Shown: positions 3,334-62,599 of the stretch, piece by piece
Numbering within the stretch: position 1 is the stretch's first letter
How the letters are laid out: each line of letters opens with the position of its first letter
Assembly (NCBI RefSeq): GCF_003991565.1
Contig: NZ_CP032819.1
Span: 2,914,001 to 2,978,000, forward strand
From: Butyricimonas faecalis
GTDB taxonomy: Bacteria; Bacteroidota; Bacteroidia; Bacteroidales; Marinifilaceae
Length of the DNA: 64,000 nucleotides
Reading direction: 5' to 3'
Made by a program: the position numbers and the translations under genes
The notes under the pieces: model-generated
What the model was told of the DNA's origin: nothing
The model's database searches: none
The model's input: only the letters and a program-made list of their open reading frames with translations

Positions 3334-4584
3334 CTAAAAAGCGGTATACTTCCCGTTAAACCGGAAACCTATTCCCAGCATCAAAAAGTTAGGCTCGTTG
3401 AAATCTTGGAGACGGTAGCCCACATGCAAAAAAACGGCACGTGACAAGGCTATTTTCAACGTCAATAGCTGATAAAACATATTCAGATCGTCCTTCCCGA
3501 TCACGTTCGCCCCGATCCCGACTCCCACGACAAAAAAAGGCATCACGTACTCTGCCCGCCCGGAAAACCCCAAGGCAAACTGATCGCCCAGAGGGGGACG
3601 AACAATGTCCGACTTACTCACCCTCCCGTACACGTCCCCCTCCGTGTATAAATTGGCTCCCCCGTCAAACGTCCCGTCCAGAGACACGCCTAACCGGAGT
3701 TTATAATTCAAATTATACATCGGGGTAAAATTAAACCCGAACACGGGATAAGCCTCCGGAGAAGGGGAAAAACCGTCGGACGTCCTCACCAACCGATCAT
3801 GCCACGAACCGAAGAAAACAAAATCATACGTGAAATGTCGGCGGAAAGGTTGTACAGCAAAATCAACTCTCCTCTCCAACGACTTCAAATCATCCTTCCG
3901 GTAAAAATTACACTCCAACCCGATATTTCCCCCGATCGTGTTCAGCCCTGCATTAGGAAGCTTCGTATTCCCGTTGGAAAAATGCGACAACGTCACTCCC
4001 GAAAGCAGGCTAACCCTTGGAGACAACCTCCAGCGCAAATAAAAATTAACATTAATATAAGCATTCACCTTCGAACCGATTATCGTGTTGGACGAATTAT
4101 AATACGGGTCATAAGTCTTCCACCCCGCGGACAACCCGAAATTCCATTCGTAATGCAAAGACAACCAAGGAGCTAAACTAGAGATACGAGCCCCTTGAAA
4201 CAAATAAAAGGCAACCGGGTTCCCCAACTGCCTGGATCCCCCGAAATTATAAAATCCGACTCCTACCCCCTGGTATACATCTCCATAAATATGCTCGTCA
4301 AAACTCCCCGGACGATAACGGAACAAATACTTCAAGTGAGAGGAAAAAACTCCCTGAATAATCCTTCCCTCCACGTTCTCCCCCTGCAAAAAAGAACTTG
4401 TCGGGAAAACATACTCCGGCCGTCCCTCCACCCGCAATCCATGCACGAACTTACGCAACGACACATCCACCAAACTATCGTTCCCCTGCCCTATCACGTG
4501 CGACACGCCTCCAACGAAAATGATCCCCCAAAAAGCGACTACTCTCAAAATTCTCTTCATACCATCCATATAAATTCCATTCAT
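3334..4584 (-). CDS. PagL-like acyloxyacyl hydrolase (lipid A 3-O-deacylase family), outer-membrane protein
   Basis: About 416-residue beta-barrel protein with an N-terminal signal peptide (hydrophobic WGIIFVGG, then HVIGQ). The segment SHFSNGNTKLPNAGLN (about 200-215) matches the PagL active-site block, with His201 and Ser203 in the catalytic positions. The position that holds the catalytic Glu in Pseudomonas PagL is Asn215 here, so activity is uncertain. PagL enzymes remove the 3-O acyl chain of lipid A in the outer membrane. The protein is longer than classical PagL (about 170 residues), as is common for Bacteroidetes relatives. The start could instead be the ATG at 4560, which gives a cleaner signal peptide. 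It lies 12 nt after the MFS gene, suggesting co-transcription. Confidence 0.7.
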   Translation of the reverse strand: MNGIYMDGMKRILRVVAFWGIIFVGGVSHVIGQGNDSLVDVSLRKFVHGLRVEGRPEYVFPTSSFLQGENVEGRIIQGVFSSHLKYLFRYRPGSFDEHIYGDVYQGVGVGFYNFGGSRQLGNPVAFYLFQGARISSLAPWLSLHYEWNFGLSAGWKTYDPYYNSSNTIIGSKVNAYINVNFYLRWRLSPRVSLLSGVTLSHFSNGNTKLPNAGLNTIGGNIGLECNFYRKDDLKSLERRVDFAVQPFRRHFTYDFVFFGSWHDRLVRTSDGFSPSPEAYPVFGFNFTPMYNLNYKLRLGVSLDGTFDGGANLYTEGDVYGRVSKSDIVRPPLGDQFALGFSGRAEYVMPFFVVGVGIGANVIGKDDLNMFYQLLTLKIALSRAVFLHVGYRLQDFNEPNFLMLGIGFRFNGKYTAF

Positions 4585-4596
4585 AAAACAATCCGG

Positions 4597-6000
4597 TTAA
4601 CCACTCTTAGCCTTTCCTCGCAACAATTCCGGTTCCGGCAAAGAAACCCGGGAAAAACTCACGACAGCGGCCAGCGTGGCAAACCCTCCCGCGAAATAAA
4701 GGGAAGCATACGTCCCATTCACCGGGAAAACAACAAACATCAAAGCCACCAACGAAGCCCCCGTCGTCTGTCCGGTCAACCGGGCCATACCCAGCATCCC
4801 GCTAGCCCCACCACTCCTATTCTGCGGTGCGGAAGAAATTAATATACTATTATTCGGTGTCTGGAATAAACCAAACCCGAATCCACACATAGCCATAAAC
4901 AAAGCAATTCCCACGTTGGGAACCTGATCCGCGAAGACAGCTAACAAAAACAGCCCCGCGGAAAATATCGACAATCCCACGCCACCTAACACACCCGCGT
5001 GAACTCGCTCGAGCAACCTCCCAGCCAAAGGAGCCGCAACCATCGTTGCCAACGGCCAAGGGGTCAGCAACAATCCCGTTGCCACCTCATCCAGCCCCAG
5101 CGTGTGCTGCAAAAAGAAAGGCAAAGAAACCATGGCCAACATCTGCGCCACGAAAGAACACACGGACGTTCCGACAGACAACGAAAAAATCGGAATCTTC
5201 AACAAATCGACAGGCAACAAGGGATATTCCCGCGACAACTGACGACGCACGAAAAAGTAACCGACAAACAGCATCACCCCAATCCCCGGGAGCAGTACAG
5301 GCAAACTCACCCCGTGAGTGAACCCCTCGATCGAGAAAATCAACAAACCAAACGTAAACGCGTTCATCACCCCACTGATCCAATCAAACTTCCGTTCACT
5401 TCTCTTTACCGGATTCACGGGCAAAAAACGGAAAGACAAGATCAATGCCGCGATAACAACGGGAACATTTACAGCGAACAACCACTGCCAAGAGGCTACC
5501 GACAAAATCCCCGCCGCGATCGTCGGCCCTCCCGCTGCCGACACGGCAACCACCAACGCGTTAATACCCATTCCTCGACCCAAATGCCGTTTGGGATAAA
5601 TAATCCGAATCAAAGAAGTATTCACGCTTGCCAAAGCGGCCGCCCCAAATCCCTGGAACACACGGGCTATCGTCAACATCAGCAAAGAATTGGAAAGCGC
5701 GCAAGCTAATGAAGTCACGCTAAATATAAACAAACCTCCGATATACACCCGCCGATAACCCAATATATCCCCCAAAGAAGACAACGACAACAAGGAAACC
5801 ACGATAGCCAACTGGTAAGCGTTCACAATCCAAATAGACATAGACGGCGTGGCCTGCAAATCCTCCGCGATAGACGGTAACGCCACGTTAGCAATCGTGC
5901 CATCCAACACGGAAACCGTAATTCCCATGGCAATGGCAAGAATCGCCCCGTATCGCTTCGGGATAGGCAACCCGTCCCACTCGATCTCTTTTGTGCTCAT
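4597..6000 (-). CDS. MFS drug/solute exporter, DHA2 (EmrB-like) family
   Basis: 467-residue inner-membrane protein with about 14 hydrophobic helices. It begins with the DHA2-type segment VSVLDGTIANVALPSIAEDL, followed by WIVNAYQLAIVVSLLSLSSLGDILGYRRVY, the family motif A loop between helices 2 and 3. It is expected to export toxic compounds or metabolites by proton antiport; the substrate cannot be told from sequence. It precedes the PagL-like gene by 12 nt on the same strand, so both could be an envelope-defence unit. A candidate -7 element (TATTTTTG on the minus strand, 6024-6031) and the 11-bp repeat array at 6181-6240 lie upstream. Confidence 0.88.
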   Translation of the reverse strand: MSTKEIEWDGLPIPKRYGAILAIAMGITVSVLDGTIANVALPSIAEDLQATPSMSIWIVNAYQLAIVVSLLSLSSLGDILGYRRVYIGGLFIFSVTSLACALSNSLLMLTIARVFQGFGAAALASVNTSLIRIIYPKRHLGRGMGINALVVAVSAAGGPTIAAGILSVASWQWLFAVNVPVVIAALILSFRFLPVNPVKRSERKFDWISGVMNAFTFGLLIFSIEGFTHGVSLPVLLPGIGVMLFVGYFFVRRQLSREYPLLPVDLLKIPIFSLSVGTSVCSFVAQMLAMVSLPFFLQHTLGLDEVATGLLLTPWPLATMVAAPLAGRLLERVHAGVLGGVGLSIFSAGLFLLAVFADQVPNVGIALFMAMCGFGFGLFQTPNNSILISSAPQNRSGGASGMLGMARLTGQTTGASLVALMFVVFPVNGTYASLYFAGGFATLAAVVSFSRVSLPEPELLRGKAKSG

Positions 6001-6180
6001 TTTCCCAGTCCAATTTTATCGTACAAAAATACGAAATATAAGATTCCCGCTTCATCTAACGCATAAAAAATTCAAAAGTTCCTATATCGGTTGTCTATCG
6101 GTATATAAACGGAAAACAAGCGGGGAGTAATAAACACGTCATTACCACATCATGATAAATAGCGGATCATTTCCGTGTAA

Positions 6181-6240
6181 AACGCTATTAGAACGCTATT
6201 AAAACGCTATTAAAACGCTATACGGAATAGCGTTCTATTA
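6181..6240. repeat. Tandem 11-bp repeat array with an inverted copy
   Basis: Three full 11-bp units AACGCTATTA(G/A) and a partial fourth are followed, after CGG, by AATAGCGTT, the reverse complement of the unit core. The array sits about 180 bp upstream of the MFS exporter start within the 666-bp gap 6001-6666. It could form a hairpin or be a binding array for a regulator. It has no spacers and is not a CRISPR. Confidence 0.7.
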
Positions 6241-6431
6241 GGGATTTAATTGCTTGTTAAATATCTTCTACCCGGAAATAATCCGGAAGTGATCCTGAAA
6301 TATCCCTTTTAAACCTTATAAACAGGACATTAACAACACCTTATTTCAGATTAACCTCCTCATACAATCGCAAGAACCTGCAAAAAAAGAGGTTTAACAA
6401 GCCTATTTTTTAACGAAAACCTTCCCTGGAG

Positions 6432-6613
6432 GGTGTGTCAAAACTCTATATTCAAACTCCCTCCCCCCTTCGGGGTACTCCCTCTATAAACAGAGGGAGA
6501 GTTAAAATGTACACAATTTTCGGGGAAAAGCTCCACCACCTTCTCTGTTTATAGAGAAGGTGGCAGCGAAACTGACGGAGGAGTTTTATGCGGAGAACGA
6601 ATTTTGACACACC
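6432..6613. mobile_element. MITE-like inverted-repeat element
   Basis: A 182-bp segment bounded by 12-bp perfect inverted repeats GGTGTGTCAAAA (6432-6443 and complement 6602-6613), with inner inverted AAACTCC/GGAGTTT. It contains two internal hairpins: 6478-6499 (CTCCCTCT stem) and 6536-6563 (an 11-bp perfect stem CCACCTTCTCT with a 6-nt loop). There is no coding sequence. This is the form of a small non-autonomous element or an intergenic mosaic repeat. The rest of the 6001-6666 gap holds only the tandem array and AT-rich sequence. Confidence 0.6.
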
Positions 6614-6666
6614 TTCAACCACTTGGAAATCAACCCTCCCCCTTTACTTTTACCGCATGAACCGTA

Positions 6667-9600
6667 TTATTTTTTCTTTGCCGCTTTATTCGGGAAGGCA
6701 GGGATAGGCGGAATCTCGTTCTTCTCCGTCTTCAACTTTTCCAATATCACTTGGATCGCTTTATTCAGTTGCTGATCCTCACCCTTATATTCCAGATAAG
6801 GGTCGTTTTCAATATCAACGTGAGGAGTCACGCCCGTTCCCTCGATAATAAACTCGCTACCGTCTGCTGCAAACGGCGCGTATGAAGGCGTCACGATGGA
6901 ACCACCGTCAACAACCCGGATGGAACCGCTATATCCCACGACACCTCCCCACGTACGACGCCCGATAATCGTTCCCAAGTGATTGTACTTGAAGCGATAC
7001 GGGAAAAGGTCCCCGTCAGAGGCAGAATACTCGTTTACCAACAAAACTTTCGGCCCGAGGAATGTACCAACGGGATTTACCGACCCGGAGGTTTGGTTCG
7101 TGTGCATCGTGTAGAACGTCGGAGTACGCATCAAACGTTCGGTAATCATCGGGGATACGTTTCCACCGCCATTTCCCCGGTCATCAATGATCAAGGCTTT
7201 TTTATTCAACTGCGGGTAATAGTGCTTCACGAACTCGTTCAACCCGTCAACACCCATGTCCGGAATATGAATGTAACCTACTTCCCCGTTCGTGGCCTCG
7301 TTTACCTTACGGATATTATTTTGCACCCAATGATAATAATACAATTTTGATTCGTCAGCCAGCGGAACGACTAACACGTTACGGACTCCCTTCTCAACCG
7401 GGGTCGTGTTCACGGTCAATTCAACAGTCTTGCCTGCCATATCGATCAACTCGGAGAACAGGTTATCCACCTCTTTCAACGATTTCCCGTTGATGGCCAA
7501 AATATAATCTCCCGCTTTTACCTCCACGCCCGGCATAGTCAAAGGCGAACGGGTTGAAGCATCCCAGTTTGCTCCCTCGATGACTTCGGTCACTTTGAAA
7601 TAACCGGATTTATCTTTCATGAATTTAGCTCCCAGCAAACCCATCTTTATTCTCTCGGGCATCGGTACCCGCCCGTTAATGGAGTAGGCATGTCCGACAT
7701 TCAATTCCGCGATCATCTCCCCGATGATGTAAGTCAAGTCCGTACGATGATTCACGTAAGGAACCAATACCTTATATTTCTCGTACACGTGATTCCAATC
7801 CACGCCATGCATGTTCTTGGCATAGAAGAAATCACGCATCTGTCGCCAGCTTTCGTTATAGATCTGCATCCATTCTTGATGGTAGTCGATTACCCGTTTC
7901 ACGCCTTTCGTGGATACGGGAGAGGTCACGCTGGCAGAAAATACCGGAAGGTCTTCCACTTGGAACGCGGAGCCCGAAGAAACGATCGCCTTTTTATAAC
8001 CGGGAGTGAATTCGATGTTTCCACCCGAATCGGTCTCTTTCTTCCCGTTCAAGTCATAAATCAACGTGCTACCGCCCCGGTTGTAATACACTCGATTTCC
8101 CAGCATGTGCACGTTGCCATAATAATTCGACGCCAACACGGGTAGTTCGACAAGGCGACTTTCCAGGTTCGTGAAGTCATACACGATACTTTTATCCTCG
8201 CTCTCTTTTTTCTTGTCTTTCTCATTCACGGCAGTCTCCACCCAGACAACATCATTTTTCGGGGCAAACAATACCGGGGCATCCTTCGCCAATGGCAGGA
8301 TGTACACCTTGTTCATATCATTATACACGTGATTCCATTCCGTCCGCCCATACGTCGGGGAGAACGTGCGGGCAGAAACAAACACGAGGTATTTCCCGTC
8401 CTCGCTGAAGTTTGGCGAACTGGAACCGAACCATCCGTCGGTAACTTGGTGTTTCTCACCACTTTCAACACCGTAGACGATGATGTTATCCATCGTCGTC
8501 TCCGGACGAACGTAGGTAATATACTTGCCGTCGGGCGACCAGTTGTAGGAGGTCATGGGACGGATTCCCGATTTTTCCACGATCTTCCGGTTCCCGCTTT
8601 CCACATCGGATATATTCAAGGTATTCCCCTTTTCGCTCCAGAGAATTTTCTTGGAATCCGGGGACCATTTATAATTGAAGATATAACTTTTCAAATTTTT
8701 GACCAGTTTCCGCTCCTTCCCCGTCGCCACGTCCCGAAGATAAATATTGAACTCCCCGTCCTTGTCGGAAACATAACTGATATATTTCCCGTCCGGAGAC
8801 CAACCTGCCAGCATATCATTCGCATCGGAAGAATGGGTCAGGTTATAGGTGATTCCCTCTTTCACGGGCAACGAGAAAATATCCCCGCGAGCAGCCACGA
8901 CCACCCGTTCTCCACCGGGAGCGGCCGCGATACTCGAAATCTGACCGCTGACATCGGTCAAGGTCGGGCGAGAATAAATCTGATCGTTATCAATGTTTAT
9001 CGTGATCTTGGTTTCTTTACCACTTTGTAAATCGTACCCGTAAATATAACCACCTTGCTCGTAGACAATCAATTTGTCACCGATCGCGGGGAATTTTATA
9101 TCGTATTCTTTATAGAACGTCAGTTGTTTATCCTCTTTCGTGTTCACGTTGTAGGCGTAAAGGTTCATCACGTCGTCTCGGTCGGATACATAATATATAG
9201 TATTTCCATCCGGAGACCACATCGGAAACACGTCCTGGCGCACGTTGTCGGTAATCCGTTCGGATTTTTTCGTGTTGAAATCAAACACCCGAATATCATC
9301 CGCCATTCCTCCTTGATAACGTTTCCACGCCCGGAATTCCCGGAAGATATAATTATAAGCCAATTTCTTTCCATCCGGGGAATAAGAGGCGAAACCGCCG
9401 TTCTTTAAAGGGATTTCCTCGGACATTCCCCCCTCTACCGGCACGGTGAACAGTTGCCCGGTGAAATCGTTAAAGGTGTATCTCCGGGAACGATACAGAA
9501 TCCGTTTACTATCCGGAGTCCACCCGATCACCACGTTGTTCGGCCCCATGCGATCTCCCAGGTCATCTCTTTTCAGCGTGGCCGTGTATGTCAAGCGACG

Positions 9601-53528: not shown

Positions 53529-53673
53529 ACTTAGCTACTTACATTTACTTTTCATCATTCTTGCGTAAGCATCCATCTAATAATAGCTTTATATTGGTCT
53601 TTTATTCCTATTATCTTTTAAATCCATAGCTTTGACCGTTGCTTCTGCTACATCTTAAATCGAAAATCCATAA

Positions 53674-56328
53674 TCAATATTCTTTTATTAATTCGCTCAC
53701 TTTATTTATTACCCGATATTTCAAACTTTCAAACTGTTTAAAATGCTCCTCTCCACAATGGATTTTCAGTCTTTCACTTGGATGTAGTTTATCCAAGTCG
53801 ACAACAGAGGTTCCAGTGTCTTTGGTCTCTGCAACAAAATAGACTCGTTTGTTATCTTCAAACACCACTGCCCAATCGGGATTGTAGCTACCTATTGGTG
53901 TAGGAATTTTAAACCAATCCGGTAATTTGAAGTAGAATTTGACTTGGTCGCTTGTCTCACAATCACGAGCAAAAGTATTCTCTACAGAAGAATCCAATGG
54001 TACATATTCATCATAAATAGTCTTATCCGAATCAGAAACTTTAAACGTGAAGTCATTCAGGTAGATCTCAAGTTCTTGTTCTTCAAATAGTCGCATTTCA
54101 TAGGCGGAATCACCAATTTTGTAATACTCTATACCTTCAATCATCAATTCCTGTAATACACGTTTGATTTTATCTACAACCTGATCCATGAAAAATTGTG
54201 GATTGACCGCCAAATCATCAAGACGCTCAGATTTAACAAGGATATGCATTATCGTTGAGCGAGTCAGTTCGGTTCGATTTTGAATATAACCCAATACATC
54301 AGGTATTAGGCAATCGGAAGAATAGATAGATATTTTATCACCTTTATATTGGGCACTAATACCTTTATCCGAGATCACAACCTCCGTTTTCACAGAACGA
54401 ATGGCAGGCGCACTGATACAAGGCATCTTTTTGATTTCCTTACTTACTTTTTCAACAAGCGTATTGGTATCGTAATTTACACGATACGTAGTCTTTGCTT
54501 TCAACTTTTCCCATATTGCAAGAAACAATGGGTCAGCTTCAAATCCTTTTTTATATTTAACTGACACCCTGTTACGTTTTGGCTTGATACGTCCACTAAA
54601 GTCAACGCCACAATCTTCTTGCAACTCATTTTGAAGTGCCTTTGCAAAATCGTTATAAGATTCGTTGGCAACTACGGTCAGACGGTTTATATTCCTGTCA
54701 TAGCAACGCACGCCATCTTGATTAACCGCTAGTCGAAGTCCACGACCAATCTCTTGGCGTTTCTTTATTTCCGATTTAGTTTCATTAAGTGTACAGATCT
54801 GAAAAACATTTGGATTATCCCAACCTTCCCGTAATGCCGTATGCGAAAAAATGAAACGAAGTGGATTATTCATATCTAGCAATGTCTCTTTATCTTTCAT
54901 GATCAAGTTGTAAGTATCGGCATCGGCTTGTGTTTCACCTGACGTGTCTTTTACCCGTCCTTTTTTATCTTGTGAAAAGTAGCCGTTATGGATTTTATCT
55001 GAATATTTACTTAATGATTGATACGTAGACTTATGTATCAATTCATTATATATTTCTTTAAACCATACGGCAAACTTTCCGTCGACAACATTTCCTTGTG
55101 CATCATAGCTCCGATAGTTTGCCACTCGGTCGACAAAAAAAAGGGACAAGACTTTTATACCCTGTCTATTCAACTTTAACTCTTTACGCAGATGCTCTTC
55201 AACAGTACGTCGAATCTGAAACTTCATAATCTCGTCATTCAAGTCATTTTTCCGTTGTCCCTGATAGAGAATATCACCATTTGAAAATATGATACAGCCA
55301 TTTGCTGCATCGATTTCTTCTACAATATACCCGTTACGATAAACTTCCCTGCCATTGGAAAGTACATACAAATCACTACCAGAACGGACTGTGACAGATT
55401 TCTTTTTTACTCCACCTTTGTCGTTTATATCAATGGAGACTTTTGCCGTAATTTTTGTCTTAGAGGCAGTTATAGACTCCAATGCGACGTAAATCCCATT
55501 CAGAGAATTTTCTTCCAAAACCGAATCGACCTCAATCTGCTTCACCAATCCCAAATCATAAGCTTTAATGGGATTTAGGCTATAAATCAGATTATAACGA
55601 TTACGATGTGTCGCCGAATAACGTAGCGTGCAGAGTGGATTAAGGTTCGAGATAGCTGCAGCACGTTTTTCTGACTCCATGTTCTGCGGTTCATCTACAA
55701 TCACAATAGGCTGAACGGATTGGACAAATTTGATAGGTTCTTGTCCATTCAATTTGTCATTAGGCTTATTGATCACATTCTCATCTTTTGCAAAAGAATC
55801 AATATTGATAACCAGCACCTCAATATTGTCGCCAGTTGCAAATCCTCTTAATTGAGAAATCTTATTGCGGTCATAAACATAAAACCGAACGGGAGTATTG
55901 TCATAGAGTGTTTGAAAATGCTCGTACGTGATTTTTAGATTCTTCAAAACCCCCTCACGAATAGGTACTGACGGAACCACAATTACAAACTTCTTGAATC
56001 CATACTTTTTGTTTAACTCATAGATTGTGCGCAAATAAACGTATGTTTTTCCAGTACCTGTTTCCATTTCGACCGAGAAATGCATATTTTCAAGCGTAAT
56101 GGAACATGGAATATTATTCTGTTGCTGCACTTTTTGCAAGTTGGCAAGTATTTGTTCTTTAGATAAAACCAATCTATTTCCGATTCCTGCTGTTAAATCA
56201 AGCACTCCGTTCTCATTCAGACTATATTGACAACCTGATTCTTCCGACATTTGTCCCTCAAAGAGATTGACGGCCGCTTGTATAGCTTCTTGTTGATAGA
56301 CCAAATTAGATTCAAAAGTTAGCTTCAT
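53674..56328 (-). CDS. Type III restriction Res-like helicase-nuclease
   Basis: 884-residue DNA helicase-endonuclease. SF2 helicase motifs are visible: Walker A METGTGKT (88-95), DEPQ (212-215, replacing the usual DExH), SAT (238-240) and motif VI QEIGRGLRLAVN. Near the C-terminus is a PD-(D/E)XK nuclease signature, NPDWAVVF (Pro817-Asp818) and VAETK (Glu834-Lys836), as in Type III Res subunits. Partner is the Mod-like methylase, separated here by two further genes. The start overlaps the preceding small gene by 4 nt. The locus is AT-rich compared with the men genes, suggesting acquisition. Confidence 0.88.
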   Translation of the reverse strand: MKLTFESNLVYQQEAIQAAVNLFEGQMSEESGCQYSLNENGVLDLTAGIGNRLVLSKEQILANLQKVQQQNNIPCSITLENMHFSVEMETGTGKTYVYLRTIYELNKKYGFKKFVIVVPSVPIREGVLKNLKITYEHFQTLYDNTPVRFYVYDRNKISQLRGFATGDNIEVLVINIDSFAKDENVINKPNDKLNGQEPIKFVQSVQPIVIVDEPQNMESEKRAAAISNLNPLCTLRYSATHRNRYNLIYSLNPIKAYDLGLVKQIEVDSVLEENSLNGIYVALESITASKTKITAKVSIDINDKGGVKKKSVTVRSGSDLYVLSNGREVYRNGYIVEEIDAANGCIIFSNGDILYQGQRKNDLNDEIMKFQIRRTVEEHLRKELKLNRQGIKVLSLFFVDRVANYRSYDAQGNVVDGKFAVWFKEIYNELIHKSTYQSLSKYSDKIHNGYFSQDKKGRVKDTSGETQADADTYNLIMKDKETLLDMNNPLRFIFSHTALREGWDNPNVFQICTLNETKSEIKKRQEIGRGLRLAVNQDGVRCYDRNINRLTVVANESYNDFAKALQNELQEDCGVDFSGRIKPKRNRVSVKYKKGFEADPLFLAIWEKLKAKTTYRVNYDTNTLVEKVSKEIKKMPCISAPAIRSVKTEVVISDKGISAQYKGDKISIYSSDCLIPDVLGYIQNRTELTRSTIMHILVKSERLDDLAVNPQFFMDQVVDKIKRVLQELMIEGIEYYKIGDSAYEMRLFEEQELEIYLNDFTFKVSDSDKTIYDEYVPLDSSVENTFARDCETSDQVKFYFKLPDWFKIPTPIGSYNPDWAVVFEDNKRVYFVAETKDTGTSVVDLDKLHPSERLKIHCGEEHFKQFESLKYRVINKVSELIKEY

Positions 56329-57008
56329 TGGATATTCTTTGAAAAGTCAAACATTAGATGATATAAAACTAATTCATCTCCGGAACAATGAGTGTGTTTT
56401 GATACATAGGAATAAGAATATCCATCAGCGAAATTCTCATATTGCATTTGCTGTATTGCATTTGCATTAACTGACTGTCCTTGGGCATCAGTAAAATTTG
56501 TATTCAACATAGAATTTATATTATTCACAATATCCTTTTGTGTATTCACCGGTTCTACAAGAAAACCGAACATTGCACTACAACCAAAATACGAAGAATA
56601 ATATCCGGTAGAAAACCTGCATATTCCATTCTTTACATATTCTGCATTCAACCCTGTTGTTCCTTTAGGATTAGTTGTATTTAACCTTTTACACTCAATA
56701 ATATAATAGGCTCTATCGTTCACATATTCATTTTTAGTTGGGAGAATACGAATATCAACTCTCCCTGTGTTTTCTACTGTTTCCTTATCAAACTTCAAAT
56801 TCCTTAATTCGTTTTTTACTTTAAAGTCAAAATCTTGTAAATATTTCAGAAACTCATCCCTAATCAGGTTCTCATCGTTTACTAAACTAATGCCGGAGTT
56901 CAATATTGTATTATACACGATAATACATTTTGTTAGGACAAACTCCAAATATAAATCTTTTCGAGTTTGCGAATAATTGAAAGAAGATGCATCTAATATG
57001 TTTAACAT
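56325..57008 (-). CDS. Small PD-(D/E)XK nuclease-like protein in the restriction locus
   Basis: 227 residues, family not recognised with certainty. The segment GRVDIRI (Asp85) followed by YYIIECKRL (Glu105-x-Lys107) has the D-(about 20)-E-x-K spacing of PD-(D/E)XK nucleases, with a preceding acidic helix (NLIRDEFLKYL, Glu52). Length suits a stand-alone nuclease or specificity partner. It overlaps the Eco57I-like methylase by 7 nt and the Res gene by 4 nt, so translation is coupled with both. An unrelated role such as a structural subunit remains possible. Confidence 0.6.
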   Translation of the reverse strand: MLNILDASSFNYSQTRKDLYLEFVLTKCIIVYNTILNSGISLVNDENLIRDEFLKYLQDFDFKVKNELRNLKFDKETVENTGRVDIRILPTKNEYVNDRAYYIIECKRLNTTNPKGTTGLNAEYVKNGICRFSTGYYSSYFGCSAMFGFLVEPVNTQKDIVNNINSMLNTNFTDAQGQSVNANAIQQMQYENFADGYSYSYVSKHTHCSGDELVLYHLMFDFSKNIQ

Positions 57009-60000
57009 TGTCCGCCCCTCCCTGTTTTTAACATTGCATCATCAAATTCATTAACATCTAAATACGCTACGGCCTTATACCATAAACGTTTTTCATTTGG
57101 TTTGAAAATATAAAAGTATTCCTTTTCAAATCCCCGAACATCCTTTTGCACAAATAATGCATCAGTCAACTTATTGGATGCTAACGCTATAATAGTAGAC
57201 AATAAGTTCTTATTATCAGAAGTAAAAACGATATCATCAATGAACATACTTTCGTCAATTACTTTAAAATACATTCCTATAACTTGACTGGAATATAGAA
57301 TTTCAACCGTAAAACGTTTCCCGTTCCTATTAAAACTATTAGCAAAACGATCTATATATACTTGGGCATATTCTTTTAACATCGTATCTTGGGTATTCAG
57401 AGCTTTAAATAATTGATCGTTAAGCATAAGTTCCTTCCTTTTTTCAATACCGACATCGTTTATGTGAATTATAGTACGACTGACGTTTAACGCATAGTCA
57501 ACAATATCATCATCAGCTGTTGTCAAATTTAACATGTCTTTAATCTTATTGTTATAAGCATTTGATTCATCTACTATCTTTTTATCAATATCATATAATT
57601 CATTTGCATTCAAAAGCATACTTTCCTTTTTTTGATCACGCAACCTATATAACCCTTCCATTGTTTCATAATAATCCTTATTAAGTTCGACATAGGGAAG
57701 ACTTAGTATCTCACCTCCTTTTGCATTTCCACGTTCTATGCCAATAGAAGAAAAAGTTTGAATAGATAAATACGATAAAATGTCAGATGAAAAAATACAT
57801 CCAATATTCTTTAAAATATTCGTATCTTCAATTCTATACGCTTTAATTGATAATAAAGACTTCTTAAAAATCGCATTTTTATATGAAATAGCGGATCTTA
57901 AAATGAGTTTTTCCGTATCAAGGCCATGACGGCACAGAAGCATTGGTGCATAAAAAATATCTTTCTTAGTATTTCTAATCCTCCCTAATCTATCTTTTTG
58001 GAAGGGAGTTACTTTTTGAGGATTTATAAAAAAGTTTTCCACTGCATAGACATCAATAAAATCCATGCCTTTCAATCTAGAAGCGTCATATTTTGCTTTC
58101 TTTTCACTAAATGTAATGCCTGTTGCTGATATAAATCTGTCTCTATCATTAATAATGTTTTTTATTGAAGGTTTTTCTCTCAGCCGTTTTATTAAATTGA
58201 AATCTAGATAAGAACCATAAACAAGCACTTTCCAAAGCCAATCGTATTTTTTCAGCCGATCTTGCTGCACTTCTTGGATATCACTACTGCATACAGAAAA
58301 AACCTTAAACATCGAAAAAAAACGACTAGGCTTCAATGCAATATGAGTAATAATATTATTATTCGTATCATCTCCGTTGGCATATTTATAAAACAATACA
58401 CATGCAGGAGCTATTGCTTTGTCATTGGATTTGTCAAAAACCTCTTTTCTAACAACTGCTAACTCAAATACTTTCTTGATATGAAATTCTTCTAACAGAT
58501 ACCGACGAAATGAACTCTCTCTATCTTTAGAATTAGAATTATATAGAGATGTACTATGAATGACTAATGCCACCTCTGTGTTTTTTGTACAGAAATCACT
58601 CGTTCTAAAAACAAAATATTCCGCTAATTCGTTATTATTGATTTGTATACAATATTTTTTACCTCTTTCTTTTTTCTTTCTTTCTTTGATATATTTTCGC
58701 ACAACTCTATCCCCACCTGCCCCTTTCCAAGGAGGATTACCAATTATGTAGTCAAAATGAATCTTTTTATCCTCCAAGGCTTTCAAATCCTTATTATCCA
58801 AATCAAAAGTATCACTACAAACAAAGTTCGTCCCTATCAAATTAGGAAATTTAAATTTTCTAATATCAGCAGGTTTTTGATAATCAAGTAACGTTAGATA
58901 AACAGAGAAGATAGCGACTTGTATTGCGCTCGGATCTTTGTCTATGCCAAAAATATTATCTTGAGCAATACTCTTTAATGCTTGTCTGAAATCATCAGTA
59001 TTAGTATCTTCTATTTCATTGACTTCTATGTACTTCTCTATGATTTTCCGTAATGATTCAACTAAAAATATTCCGGATCCACAAGCTGGATCTAAAACTT
59101 TACAATTGTAATTACTTGATTCTTTTAGTTTCTTTCCTATAGTTTCAGATATGATATAATCAACTAAAAAAGTAGGTGTATAATAAGCACCTCCATCTTC
59201 TTGATTTTCTTTCCCTATAAATTTCTCATACATATTACTAATAAACTCTATAGGGAGAATAGAAAAATCATACATATCAAATAAAGATTGTTGCCCTGTC
59301 GAGATTTCTTCACTCCGTAACAATCTAATAAGAATATCCAAGGCATCTTGGTCTATTGTACTAAACTCACTCTCACTTATGCGAAACAGATCTCCATTAA
59401 AACCTGTATCTTTATTTTCTATATGTCGTATAAAAGCGACAAAATCATCTCTATTGCTTAAACAATTACATAAATCTTCATTATCCCATAGTTCTTTCTC
59501 TTGATAATTAAGCCTAACATGACGATCTATAAGATATCTGAAAAAAATTACTTTACCCAATAAGGCATTTGCCGTTGTTTGTGTTAAGCCTTTTTCCTTC
59601 AAGCGTTTCTGTACAGCTTCAATATTCTCCAATAAACGATAATCCACCCTATTTTTATGGTTTATATCATCATTATACTTCTCCCATGTTTTACCGGTTA
59701 CTAATTCAAAATAGGTAAAATCATTTAAAGTTTCATTTCCGCCTAACCTCTTTAATAATTGTTTATTCTCATCAATAGCAAAACCATTGAATATTTCAAC
59801 AACATTGTTTTCAAGAATAATAGCGATTGGGGATTCATTGAAGTTCCAGATAGCTTGATGTAGAGCCATTCTATCTTGAGGATCTTTAAAAAACAGAATA
59901 AGAGGCTTGTTGTCGAAACAGAAGAAAGCATCTAAAGTTCTTAATAATTCATTTTCTTCCAGCAAATGACAAACTCGACTTGGAAGCACTACCTTTTTCT

Positions 60001-60076
60001 TCCAGTTCTTATCTGATAGCCGAATAAGGCAATCATCAGTGAATGAAAGTTTATCATATATTTCTTGTAAATCCAT
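57002..60076 (-). CDS. Eco57I-like class I SAM-dependent DNA N6-adenine methylase (Type IIG-like)
   Basis: 1024-residue protein. The gamma-class methylase order is clear: GAYYTP (motif X, 296-301), LDPACGSG (motif I, 329-335) and IIGNPPWKG (motif IV, NPPW 447-450). An N-terminal region of about 250 residues (IAIILENNVVEIFNGF) resembles the degenerate HsdR-like or helical domains of Eco57I-type enzymes, and the C-terminal 500 residues probably recognise DNA. A catalytic nuclease motif was not identified inside it. It begins 13 nt after the Mod-like gene, so it is in the same transcript. Confidence 0.8.
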   Translation of the reverse strand: MDLQEIYDKLSFTDDCLIRLSDKNWKKKVVLPSRVCHLLEENELLRTLDAFFCFDNKPLILFFKDPQDRMALHQAIWNFNESPIAIILENNVVEIFNGFAIDENKQLLKRLGGNETLNDFTYFELVTGKTWEKYNDDINHKNRVDYRLLENIEAVQKRLKEKGLTQTTANALLGKVIFFRYLIDRHVRLNYQEKELWDNEDLCNCLSNRDDFVAFIRHIENKDTGFNGDLFRISESEFSTIDQDALDILIRLLRSEEISTGQQSLFDMYDFSILPIEFISNMYEKFIGKENQEDGGAYYTPTFLVDYIISETIGKKLKESSNYNCKVLDPACGSGIFLVESLRKIIEKYIEVNEIEDTNTDDFRQALKSIAQDNIFGIDKDPSAIQVAIFSVYLTLLDYQKPADIRKFKFPNLIGTNFVCSDTFDLDNKDLKALEDKKIHFDYIIGNPPWKGAGGDRVVRKYIKERKKKERGKKYCIQINNNELAEYFVFRTSDFCTKNTEVALVIHSTSLYNSNSKDRESSFRRYLLEEFHIKKVFELAVVRKEVFDKSNDKAIAPACVLFYKYANGDDTNNNIITHIALKPSRFFSMFKVFSVCSSDIQEVQQDRLKKYDWLWKVLVYGSYLDFNLIKRLREKPSIKNIINDRDRFISATGITFSEKKAKYDASRLKGMDFIDVYAVENFFINPQKVTPFQKDRLGRIRNTKKDIFYAPMLLCRHGLDTEKLILRSAISYKNAIFKKSLLSIKAYRIEDTNILKNIGCIFSSDILSYLSIQTFSSIGIERGNAKGGEILSLPYVELNKDYYETMEGLYRLRDQKKESMLLNANELYDIDKKIVDESNAYNNKIKDMLNLTTADDDIVDYALNVSRTIIHINDVGIEKRKELMLNDQLFKALNTQDTMLKEYAQVYIDRFANSFNRNGKRFTVEILYSSQVIGMYFKVIDESMFIDDIVFTSDNKNLLSTIIALASNKLTDALFVQKDVRGFEKEYFYIFKPNEKRLWYKAVAYLDVNEFDDAMLKTGRGGQC

Positions 60077-60089
60077 CTATATTTCCTCC

Positions 60090-62000
60090 TTATATCGTTT
60101 TGAATTCCACTCCTATATCCTTCATTTGTAGAACAGTATTAGTTTTTAACTGGTCATTACCTTCAAACAAGCGGTCGAGGGCAATTACTTTGTTAGGATG
60201 TTCAACAAGGATGGAATCTATCACCTCTTGGGTGGCTGACTCCAACATCAGAATCAAGTCTTTGCCATTTATGGTGTAATAGCCTTTTTTATGCTCTATG
60301 ACACTATTCAAGTCTTTGCCACTTTTCAATAACAACTCATAGACCATATTGTCGATTGTAGCATTTTCTGTAATCGGGTCAAGGAAATTTAGTATTTGTT
60401 GCTGCCATTCTTCTTTGTTGGAACCTTGAATGTCTCTCCATTGTTTGAAATTGCTATCAGAGAGTTTAAATACCTTGAAGCCGAGATCGGGCATTACCAC
60501 AGTTTGATCCTCTCCAAAAGATAATTGTCCTTTCTGTTTAGTTTGTTCTATCTCAATTCCTTTGCGAATTTTAGCTCCTGCACGACGGATTCGTTCTTTG
60601 GATATTTCAGCAATGGTTTTGTAGCCTGCTCTATAGGCTTCACTACTTTCTTCGCATAGCTCATCCATTTGCACGCATATATATTTTCGGTTTTTACCAT
60701 CTTTATTCAAAAACATTACAGCATGGGCTGTTGGTGCACTTCCCGCAAAAAAATCCAACACGATGTCACCATCATCAACATTGCATATATTAATTAAATG
60801 AGCCACCAAAGTAATTGGCTTAGGTGTTTCAAATACGGCAATACCATCAAATAGATTAACTAACTCTCTTTTGGCTGAATCGTTTGTACCAACAGAATCA
60901 GCTGTTAATAGTGTCTCTGGCGTTAATCCTTGTTTCCCCTCATGCAAGAATTTTTTTATTCTTGGAACTCCATTACCATCTGAGCCAAACCAAATTCTTT
61001 TGTCATTAATTGCTTCTTGCATTTTTACCAATGTATATCGCCAACAAGAACCGGAAGGAGGTAGAAGTTCTTTTCCTGCAGGTGTAACTAATGTGTAGAA
61101 TTGTTTCTTTGTCCCGTGGCCTGCTTGAGCGATAGCGGGTACAGAAGTCCAAAGGCCGCGAGGATCATTATCAGGATTTTTATATCTCCCTTTTGCTTCT
61201 TCGTTCATTGGTAGTAGACCAATTCTTCCTTCACTGCTTTTGGTATAACATAAGACATATTCACATCGATTTGAAATAGCTTTACGATTTTCTCTTGTGA
61301 TACGTTTTTCCCAAATAAACTGTGCTACAAAATTTTCCTCCCCAAATATCTCATTCATCAACAGTCGAAGATTATGCACCTCATTATCGTCAATTGAAAT
61401 AAATATCACTCCATCCTCACGTAGTAGACTTTTTGCAAGATAAAGACGCGGCATCATCATGTTCAGCCAATTGCTATGATACTGTCCATTCTCTTTGACA
61501 TTCTTGTGAAACATTCCGTCATGTGTCATATAGCCTTCTTCATTCTTATCTCCTACTCGACGTAAATATTCCTCTTTGCTTTCAGAAAACTTGTCCGGAT
61601 AGATGAATGAGTCACTACCTGTATTATATGGAGGATCGATATAAATCATCTTCACTTTACCGAAATAACTCTTCTGGAGGACTTTCAGCACCTCCATGTT
61701 TTCGCCCTCAATAAAGATATTTTGAGTATTATCAAAATCAACAGATTCCTCACGGCAGGGCACAAGAGTGGCCTTTGATGGTTGTTGCATCACTCTGAAA
61801 GCTTCGCTCTTCCCTGCCCAGTTCAACACATAGCGTTCATTAGTAAAATTTACATTTTCGCCTAATGCAACTTTCAACTTTTCCCAATCAATATACCCCT
61901 CATCAAATACTTCAGGCATAAGTAATCGCAAAGCTTCCAACCGTTCTTTTTGTGGAGTTTGAGAATTTCCATCCATATATTTAATATATAATTTATCCAA
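60090..62000 (-). CDS. Type III restriction-modification methylase (Mod-like, adenine-specific)
   Basis: 636-residue beta-class DNA methyltransferase: catalytic motif IV DPPYNTGSDSF (122-132) precedes the SAM-binding motif I DFFAGSAPTAHAV (about 416-428), the order used by Type III Mod subunits. It should methylate adenine in a short asymmetric site and provide recognition for Res. A target-recognition region lies between the motifs. It is the first gene of the four-gene unit; the promoter was not recognised in the AT-rich upstream region. Confidence 0.9.
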   Translation of the reverse strand: MDKLYIKYMDGNSQTPQKERLEALRLLMPEVFDEGYIDWEKLKVALGENVNFTNERYVLNWAGKSEAFRVMQQPSKATLVPCREESVDFDNTQNIFIEGENMEVLKVLQKSYFGKVKMIYIDPPYNTGSDSFIYPDKFSESKEEYLRRVGDKNEEGYMTHDGMFHKNVKENGQYHSNWLNMMMPRLYLAKSLLREDGVIFISIDDNEVHNLRLLMNEIFGEENFVAQFIWEKRITRENRKAISNRCEYVLCYTKSSEGRIGLLPMNEEAKGRYKNPDNDPRGLWTSVPAIAQAGHGTKKQFYTLVTPAGKELLPPSGSCWRYTLVKMQEAINDKRIWFGSDGNGVPRIKKFLHEGKQGLTPETLLTADSVGTNDSAKRELVNLFDGIAVFETPKPITLVAHLINICNVDDGDIVLDFFAGSAPTAHAVMFLNKDGKNRKYICVQMDELCEESSEAYRAGYKTIAEISKERIRRAGAKIRKGIEIEQTKQKGQLSFGEDQTVVMPDLGFKVFKLSDSNFKQWRDIQGSNKEEWQQQILNFLDPITENATIDNMVYELLLKSGKDLNSVIEHKKGYYTINGKDLILMLESATQEVIDSILVEHPNKVIALDRLFEGNDQLKTNTVLQMKDIGVEFKTI

Positions 62001-62139
62001 TTTAACAAGCGAAGATAGCGATAAATCTTAATAAGGTTGACATTATCTTCTCATTATTTCGATTTTGACGATAGTTTATTTTAATCACCCGACTTCAGAG
62101 GCAATTACTCCTTGCATAGGTAAGCCTCCAAATGAAGGA

Positions 62140-62319
62140 TTAAAACTTAGCTTGATCACCAGAAAGCCAGGCGAAATAATCCTTCCATTTTTTTGTTTTT
62201 CGCCAGTACAGTTCTACATAGCAGAGTTTCTCTGATTGATGGGTTCTGTCTGCTCTCTTATAATACTTAGCATATCTATTTAGCTGGCAGGTTCTAATTG
62301 TTATATTTTTATTTGCTGT
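62140..62319 (-). pseudogene. Possible fossil reading frame upstream of the restriction locus
   Basis: Reads about 59 codons without a stop (ending ...YFAWLSGDQAKF, TAA at 62140-62142), with protein-like composition rich in Lys, Arg and Trp, but no ATG at the start and an upstream stop. I do not recognise the family. It may be the tail of a lost gene adjacent to the defence locus, or chance. Confidence 0.3.
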
Positions 62320-62591
62320 TTAGAGGTCCCATTTATTTGGAGATAGGCGTTATAAACCAAACACTTCGCTTCATCTATTTCCTGTATATCCCTGTGGTGC
62401 CCGTTGGTAGTATCTGATTTATTTGTTGTATTTCTAATACTTGGTATTTCTGTTAATATTCACTTTCAAATCTCATCGAGTCGATAATTACTCCTGCACA
62501 AACGTACAAATCAGCATATTGAAAGCTGTCCTATCCCCCTTAATTTACATCCTTCTTTCTGTACATTGTCTTTAGTCTCATTTTTATTTTA

Positions 62592-62599
62592 TATCTTTG
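62592..62599 (+). promoter_or_regulatory. Candidate -7 box for glsA
   Basis: TATCTTTG matches TAnnTTTG, 24 nt before the ATG at 62624. It overlaps an alternative TTG start at 62597, which argues against that longer N-terminus. Confidence 0.5.

Follow-up and report, generated by a model that had tools for sequence, protein, structure and literature searches.

A Type III operon of Butyricimonas faecalis that probably carries a two-gene Type II-like restriction–modification cassette between mod and res

Results

Four genes inserted between menE and glsA

The window analysed here, a stretch of 64,000 nucleotides (nt) of Butyricimonas faecalis DNA (contig NZ_CP032819.1, positions 2,914,001 to 2,978,000), carries four intact open reading frames (ORFs) on its minus strand: mod, an inner methylase gene, a small PD-(D/E)XK-like gene and res. 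The first, mod (60090–62000), encodes a Type III (beta-class) DNA methyltransferase of 636 amino acids (aa) when read from the TTG at 62000; its true start is probably the in-frame ATG at 61976, because BLASTP matches in most relatives begin at Mod residue 9. It is followed by the genes of an MmeI/Eco57I-like gamma-class methylase (57002–60076, 1024 aa) and a PD-(D/E)XK-like nuclease (56325–57008, 227 aa), and by res (53674–56328), which encodes a Type III helicase-nuclease of 884 aa. The junctions are tight, with a 13-nt gap between mod and the methylase gene, a 7-nt overlap between the methylase and nuclease genes and a 4-nt overlap between the latter and res. As the ORFs are four in number, long and intact, and carry conserved motifs, a chance origin is excluded.

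The genes that flank this array, menE and glsA, adjoin one another in all five congeneric genomes. In blastn comparisons with three of the five, the match ends at window position 53530 and restarts at 62583–62592. The whole locus therefore amounts to a single insert of about 9.05 kilobases (kb; 53531–62582), missing from all five genomes. Its G+C fraction is 0.30–0.38 versus 0.43–0.50 in clean flanking windows.

The proteins of the outer and inner pairs

Mod matches the N6_N4_Mtase and EcoP15I Mod models, and Res matches ResIII, RE_endonuc and EcoP15I Res. The outer pair therefore has the make-up of a Type III system, namely a beta-class Mod and a superfamily 2 helicase Res with a C-terminal PD-(D/E)XK domain, both intact, but mod and res do not adjoin, as two genes intervene.

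The inner methylase matches the N6_Mtase, Eco57I and MmeI_Mtase models, carries the motifs DPACGSG (residues 329–335) and NPPW (447–450), and is covered from residue 15 to 1020 by the PADLOC Type IIG model at 1057 bits. It possesses the gamma-class methylase core and C-terminal recognition part of Type IIG and IIL enzymes. These enzymes have a PD-(D/E)XK domain at the N-terminus. Here, a fused N-terminal nuclease with an intact PD-ExK is missing: no conserved ExK was found in the corresponding stretch (about residues 33–113, 59738–59980, minus strand; ‘DNKPLILFF’ in the window) across 30 aligned proteins and 10 deeper relatives. The helices and strands predicted for this N-terminus would fit a degenerate nuclease fold, and the structure comparison barely covered residues 1–141 and 865–1024. 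We infer that the N-terminus is nuclease-like and may represent a degenerate PD-(D/E)XK domain. A BREX (bacteriophage exclusion) assignment through a PglX-like methylase was rejected, as the insert holds four genes only, with neither PglZ nor BrxC among them, and PglX models match far under their cut-offs.

The 227-aa protein has PD-(D/E)XK matches in Pfam below threshold only and none in NCBIfam or PADLOC, and a Foldseek search returned no match at E ≤ 0.001. Its residues E46, D85, E105 and K107, however, are invariant in all 27 aligned rows of its family, the window among them, and the same E, D and ExK set is nearly invariant in distant relatives, so that the conserved D and ExK catalytic set of a nuclease is present. 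Four of the five best chains in a structure comparison belong to restriction enzymes or McrBC, and Bse634I completes the set. A nuclease with 85% identity (P0017), which takes its name from Bacteroides fragilis, has records on 1000 contigs.

An earlier note on this DNA had described four genes on one strand with these same junctions, richer in AT than their neighbours and placed between menE and glsA, and our coordinates and base composition agree with it. Its family calls of Mod-like, Eco57I-like methylase and Res-like are likewise borne out by the domain matches. Its fourth call, PD-(D/E)XK-like, gains from the invariant catalytic residues and finds no backing in the profile databases beyond the sub-threshold Pfam matches.

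The inner pair is found both alone and nested

A scan of species genomes with an alignment of the nuclease yielded 68 loci. The methylase gene lies 5′ of the nuclease gene on the same strand in 67; the remaining one (L052) is broken off by a contig end. Visibly broken copies of the pair occur at L004, L021, L031, L033 and L045. The pair lies between Mod and Res in 13 loci (L003, L004, L005, L009, L010, L016, L019, L023, L026, L041, L043, L044 and L053), from taxa that include Bacteroidales, Myroides, Flavobacterium, Belliella and metagenome-assembled genomes of Auribacterota and Desulfobacteraceae. Among 12 of these 13 nested loci, a 4-nt overlap joins methylase and nuclease in nine and nuclease and res in seven. 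The other 55 loci have no Mod or Res beside the pair on the available sequence, some contigs stopping nearby; L068 has a Mod-like ORF on the opposite strand at a distance of about 3 kb.

Among 395 evenly sampled Bacteroidota genomes, seven gave a nuclease match, including the window. The methylase directly adjoins the nuclease in five of the six others. In the sixth, L215, whose match is weak (E = 8.4e-4), a methylase-like ORF ends about 1.7 kb upstream. None of the six has a Mod or Res match around the pair.

The predicted nuclease family extends far outside Bacteroidota. Distant relatives on Bradyrhizobium and Methylobacterium plasmids keep the two-gene layout; there the second genes encode ‘hypothetical’ proteins 222 and 229 aa long and overlap the methylase gene by 4 and 1 nt. 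In the alphaproteobacterial plasmid members L221 (6958–7626) and L222 (6997–7686), the unannotated proteins that follow MmeI-like methylases retain the E, D and ExK set.

A quick maximum-likelihood tree of the methylases from 67 loci and the window (68 in all) requires at least eight changes between the nested and the stand-alone state, every one of them forced by starred branches. The nearest relative of the window methylase (69%) is L002, a stand-alone copy in Parabacteroides bouchesdurhonensis, and the stand-alone L012 is sister to the nested L019. Furthermore, the Res proteins of L009, L010, L019, L023 and L043 are 90–96% identical, and their methylases 50–88%. Judged from these comparisons, the inner pair repeatedly enters or leaves the mod–res gap; it is self-contained within the operon of another system and occurs alone elsewhere, as an embedded module does. 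The methylases of L053 and L004 are 88% identical (that of L004 assembled from joined pieces) and their nucleases only 52%; cassettes may therefore swap the nuclease on its own.

Two recognition regions that vary independently

Each methylase contains one strongly variable, presumed target-recognition region: residues 245–400 of Mod (60801–61268) and 641–960 of the inner methylase (57197–58156), both on the minus strand. Across 66 of the 91 pairs of nested loci, the rest sharing too few alignment columns and the pairs being mutually dependent, identities in the two regions show a Spearman correlation of 0.12 (p = 0.32). L005 and L003 share 95% of the Mod region and 39% of the inner-methylase region, and the window and L010 share 72% and 29%; the imbalance is reversed for L010 and L023 (22% and 64%) and for L041 and L044 (22% and 57%). 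The close pair L019–L043 is concordant (99% and 82%). By this measure, the presumed recognition regions vary independently, which disfavours a composite single target, as such a target would predict that they be correlated.

Other genes in the mod–res gap

With the window Res as a probe, matches were found in 7 of 56 genomes of the family and in 114 of 395 genomes of the phylum. We analysed 66 higher-scoring Res loci, three from the family set and 63 from the phylum set. Where Res is at least 38% identical (51 loci), mod was found upstream in 38 and not found in 13. Of the loci with mod upstream, 32 hold one or more same-strand ORFs of at least 100 aa between mod and res and six hold none; because many of the loci share one genus (g76) and ORFs were called mechanically, the 32 filled gaps represent fewer than 32 independent events. 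Where Res is less than 38% identical (15 loci), mod lies upstream without cargo in seven and downstream in seven, with one unresolved.

By Pfam and PADLOC, the gap genes include AAA_21 with DUF4276 (HEC-01A/B), SLFN_AlbA_2, ParA-like, GmrSD (HEC-06), DUF488 with PDC-M19B, Bro-N, PHP/AAA_21, DUF1016/YhcG, Abi_2 (AbiD) with PD-Lambda-4_A, and Fic with PDC-M59A. The AAA_21 and DUF4276 pair, HEC-01A/B in PADLOC for L109, was labelled ‘RloAB’. Several further labels were assigned by eye: ‘Y1Tpase’ (L118), ‘PIN’ (L117), ‘TM’ (L119), the AAA half of L125, ‘STAND’ (L121, PD-Lambda-4_A in PADLOC) and ‘RhuM’ for the cluster of L123, L124, L132 and L140, in which the L123 member has no Pfam match and is PDC-M59A in PADLOC. 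On the Res tree, 24 changes are needed to account for 21 cargo states. L109 and L023 group together with a support of 91; the gap of L109 holds a HEC-01-like pair, and that of L023 a similar pair plus the methylase–nuclease pair (IIG-Nuc). L023 thereby has two modules in one gap, the AAA and HEC-01B-like pair (5184–6913) lying beside the methylase and nuclease. Similar-looking ORFs of about 100 aa occur between nuclease and res in L023 (10660–10980) and L019 (10651–10953).

On plasmids, 277 records had a match and 12 loci were inspected. Four carry a gap gene: a PDDEXK protein (Chryseobacterium), GmrSD_N (Planctomycetes), DUF262 (Rhizobium) and RhuM (Thiodictyon). The Monoglobus locus has a 171-nt ORF, that of Acinetobacter gerneri an unlisted 1.7-kb gap, and the remaining six are empty.

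The window's own genome holds a second operon of this kind (L220, G000:C1:388000-404000), with minus-strand ORFs at 7642–9510, 6560–7642 and 4200–6563 that encode a Mod-like protein of 622 aa, RhuM (8e-104) and a ResIII/DEAD protein of 787 aa, with overlaps of 1 and 4 nt; a 666-aa AAA_23 protein comes next. The Res-like protein of this operon was missed by the search with the window Res and has no RE_endonuc domain, and the operon is therefore either a distant Type III system or a different one.

Because related operons hold other defence-like genes at this position, the mod–res gap looks like a docking site, that is, a slot for swappable defence-like cargo.

Upstream elements and mobile carriage

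One TAnnTTTG-like element lies upstream of mod. No paired Bacteroides-type promoter was found there or in the short inner stretches scanned, and the window shows no XRE-type ORF ahead of mod comparable to the one in L010. A small XRE-type ORF, possibly a controller gene, precedes mod in the nested L010 (4709–4948, HTH_3 by Pfam), L019 and L043 (4684–4923), and precedes the stand-alone methylase in L012 (6493–6690), L029 (6731–6979), L049 (177–425) and L051 (6731–6964).

Relatives of the nuclease were absent from IMG/VR viral contigs and from 50,697 phage records, and no plasmid record covered 80% of the inner methylase. The two best-read distant plasmid relatives retain the two-gene layout; in the third (L223), the gene after the methylase is not a homologue.

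Discussion

Considering that (i) the inner pair mostly occurs without mod and res, (ii) at least eight changes separate its nested and stand-alone states, and (iii) identities in the presumed recognition regions of its methylase and of Mod are uncorrelated, the locus is best read as two systems rather than one: we consider it likely that an EcoP15I-like Type III operon here carries, between its mod and res genes, a complete two-gene Type II-like restriction–modification (R-M) cassette. Mod and Res would make up a Type III enzyme that has a motif of its own and depends on ATP for cutting, and the 1024-aa protein would methylate a different motif. As the nuclease-like N-terminal stretch of this methylase has no ExK, the 227-aa protein would serve as its nuclease in trans, probably docked on it. 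The four genes would be co-transcribed and translationally coupled, and a single transferable operon would thereby confer two restriction layers with two specificities.

One pattern weighs against free swapping of cargo. On the Res tree, IIG-Nuc is limited to one clade, with three changes versus a shuffled mean of 11.8, a restriction that is inflated by the sampling through the nuclease. Some preference or linked transfer is possible.

The two enzymes could also be functionally tied, the embedded pair acting as a guard or back-up that comes into play once the Type III enzyme is blocked by a phage, in the way PrrC serves EcoprrI (PMC12707154). The HEC, PDC, AbiD and Fic types found in other gaps, often toxin-like, would fit such a role, but the pair has its own methylase and stands alone in most genomes and thus needs no partner, and we regard such a tie as quite improbable. 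It is very doubtful that the 227-aa protein is an accessory subunit and the inner methylase mainly an epigenetic modifier, given the invariance of E46, D85, E105 and K107, the restriction-enzyme and McrBC chains among its best structural matches and the constant pairing with the methylase. A single machine of two methylases and two nucleases with one composite target, although consistent with an order, strand and tight coupling conserved in 13 further loci and with the clustering of nested IIG-Nuc on one Res clade, is so improbable that we dismissed it on the evidence of synteny (55 of 68 pairs without mod and res, unrelated gap genes in close Res relatives), the eight changes on the methylase tree and the uncorrelated recognition regions.

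The earlier note had offered two readings, a Type III operon with a Type II-like system inside it and a single four-protein system; synteny, the tree and the recognition regions favour the former and leave the latter without support. Two of the findings that it had named as speaking against its proposal can be judged here: inner genes that occur mostly alone, as is the case here, and a four-gene order confined to this strain, which the further loci contradict. Its starting point, that mod and res normally lie side by side, does not hold for this clade in our sample.

A broader proposal is that the mod–res junction of EcoP15I-like operons is a dedicated, cross-phylum docking slot that swaps whole coupled defence modules, among them a two-gene R-M class, so far unnamed, whose methylase has a dead nuclease-like domain and recruits its nuclease in trans, as back-ups or guards whose value rests on the surrounding Type III enzyme. 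In this full form it is tentative and rather unlikely to hold.

Descriptions of Type III operons usually show bare mod–res pairs. Here, those of Bacteroidota and some other lineages carry extra defence-like genes in between; the gap offers a simple rule for spotting candidate defences, and filled gaps explain the split or mis-filed annotation of such loci. The results also point to a widespread, mostly unnamed nuclease family partnered with MmeI-like methylases, and open to test the idea that embedded modules guard their host system.

Comparison with known systems

The outer genes, their domains and the mod–res order are those of EcoP15I-kind Type III systems, whereas here two extra, translationally coupled genes sit between mod and res. 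Unlike in the Type IIG/IIL enzymes MmeI, DrdV and BpuSI, the methylase N-terminus has no conserved ExK and a separate 227-aa PD-(D/E)XK-like gene follows. Our literature search turned up no publication about genes lying in the mod–res gap, a weak absence given that preprints lay outside its coverage and subscription journals were sparse. The m4C Type III systems are described as having an extra ATPase gene (PMC8259958); there, too, an additional gene joins a Type III operon, but it encodes a helicase-like ATPase and lies 5′ of mod rather than between mod and res. Published cases of embedding are PrrC in EcoprrI (PMC12707154), TgvAB inside a Type I operon (PMC11411939), and DarTG2, likewise inside a Type I operon, at a site termed a potential hotspot (PMC12255303); the HEC and PDC candidates stem from ‘guilt-by-embedding’ (Payne et al. 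2024, via PMC11411939 and PMC12988326), a set that may include Type III hosts. The arrangement described here resembles these in placing a self-contained module inside the operon of another restriction system, and differs in having a Type III operon as host and, as cargo, an R-M pair with its own methylase. That defences are embedded in defences is known; what appears to be new, from sequence comparison, is that a Type III operon encloses a self-contained, predicted two-gene R-M module, and does so in a recurrent slot.
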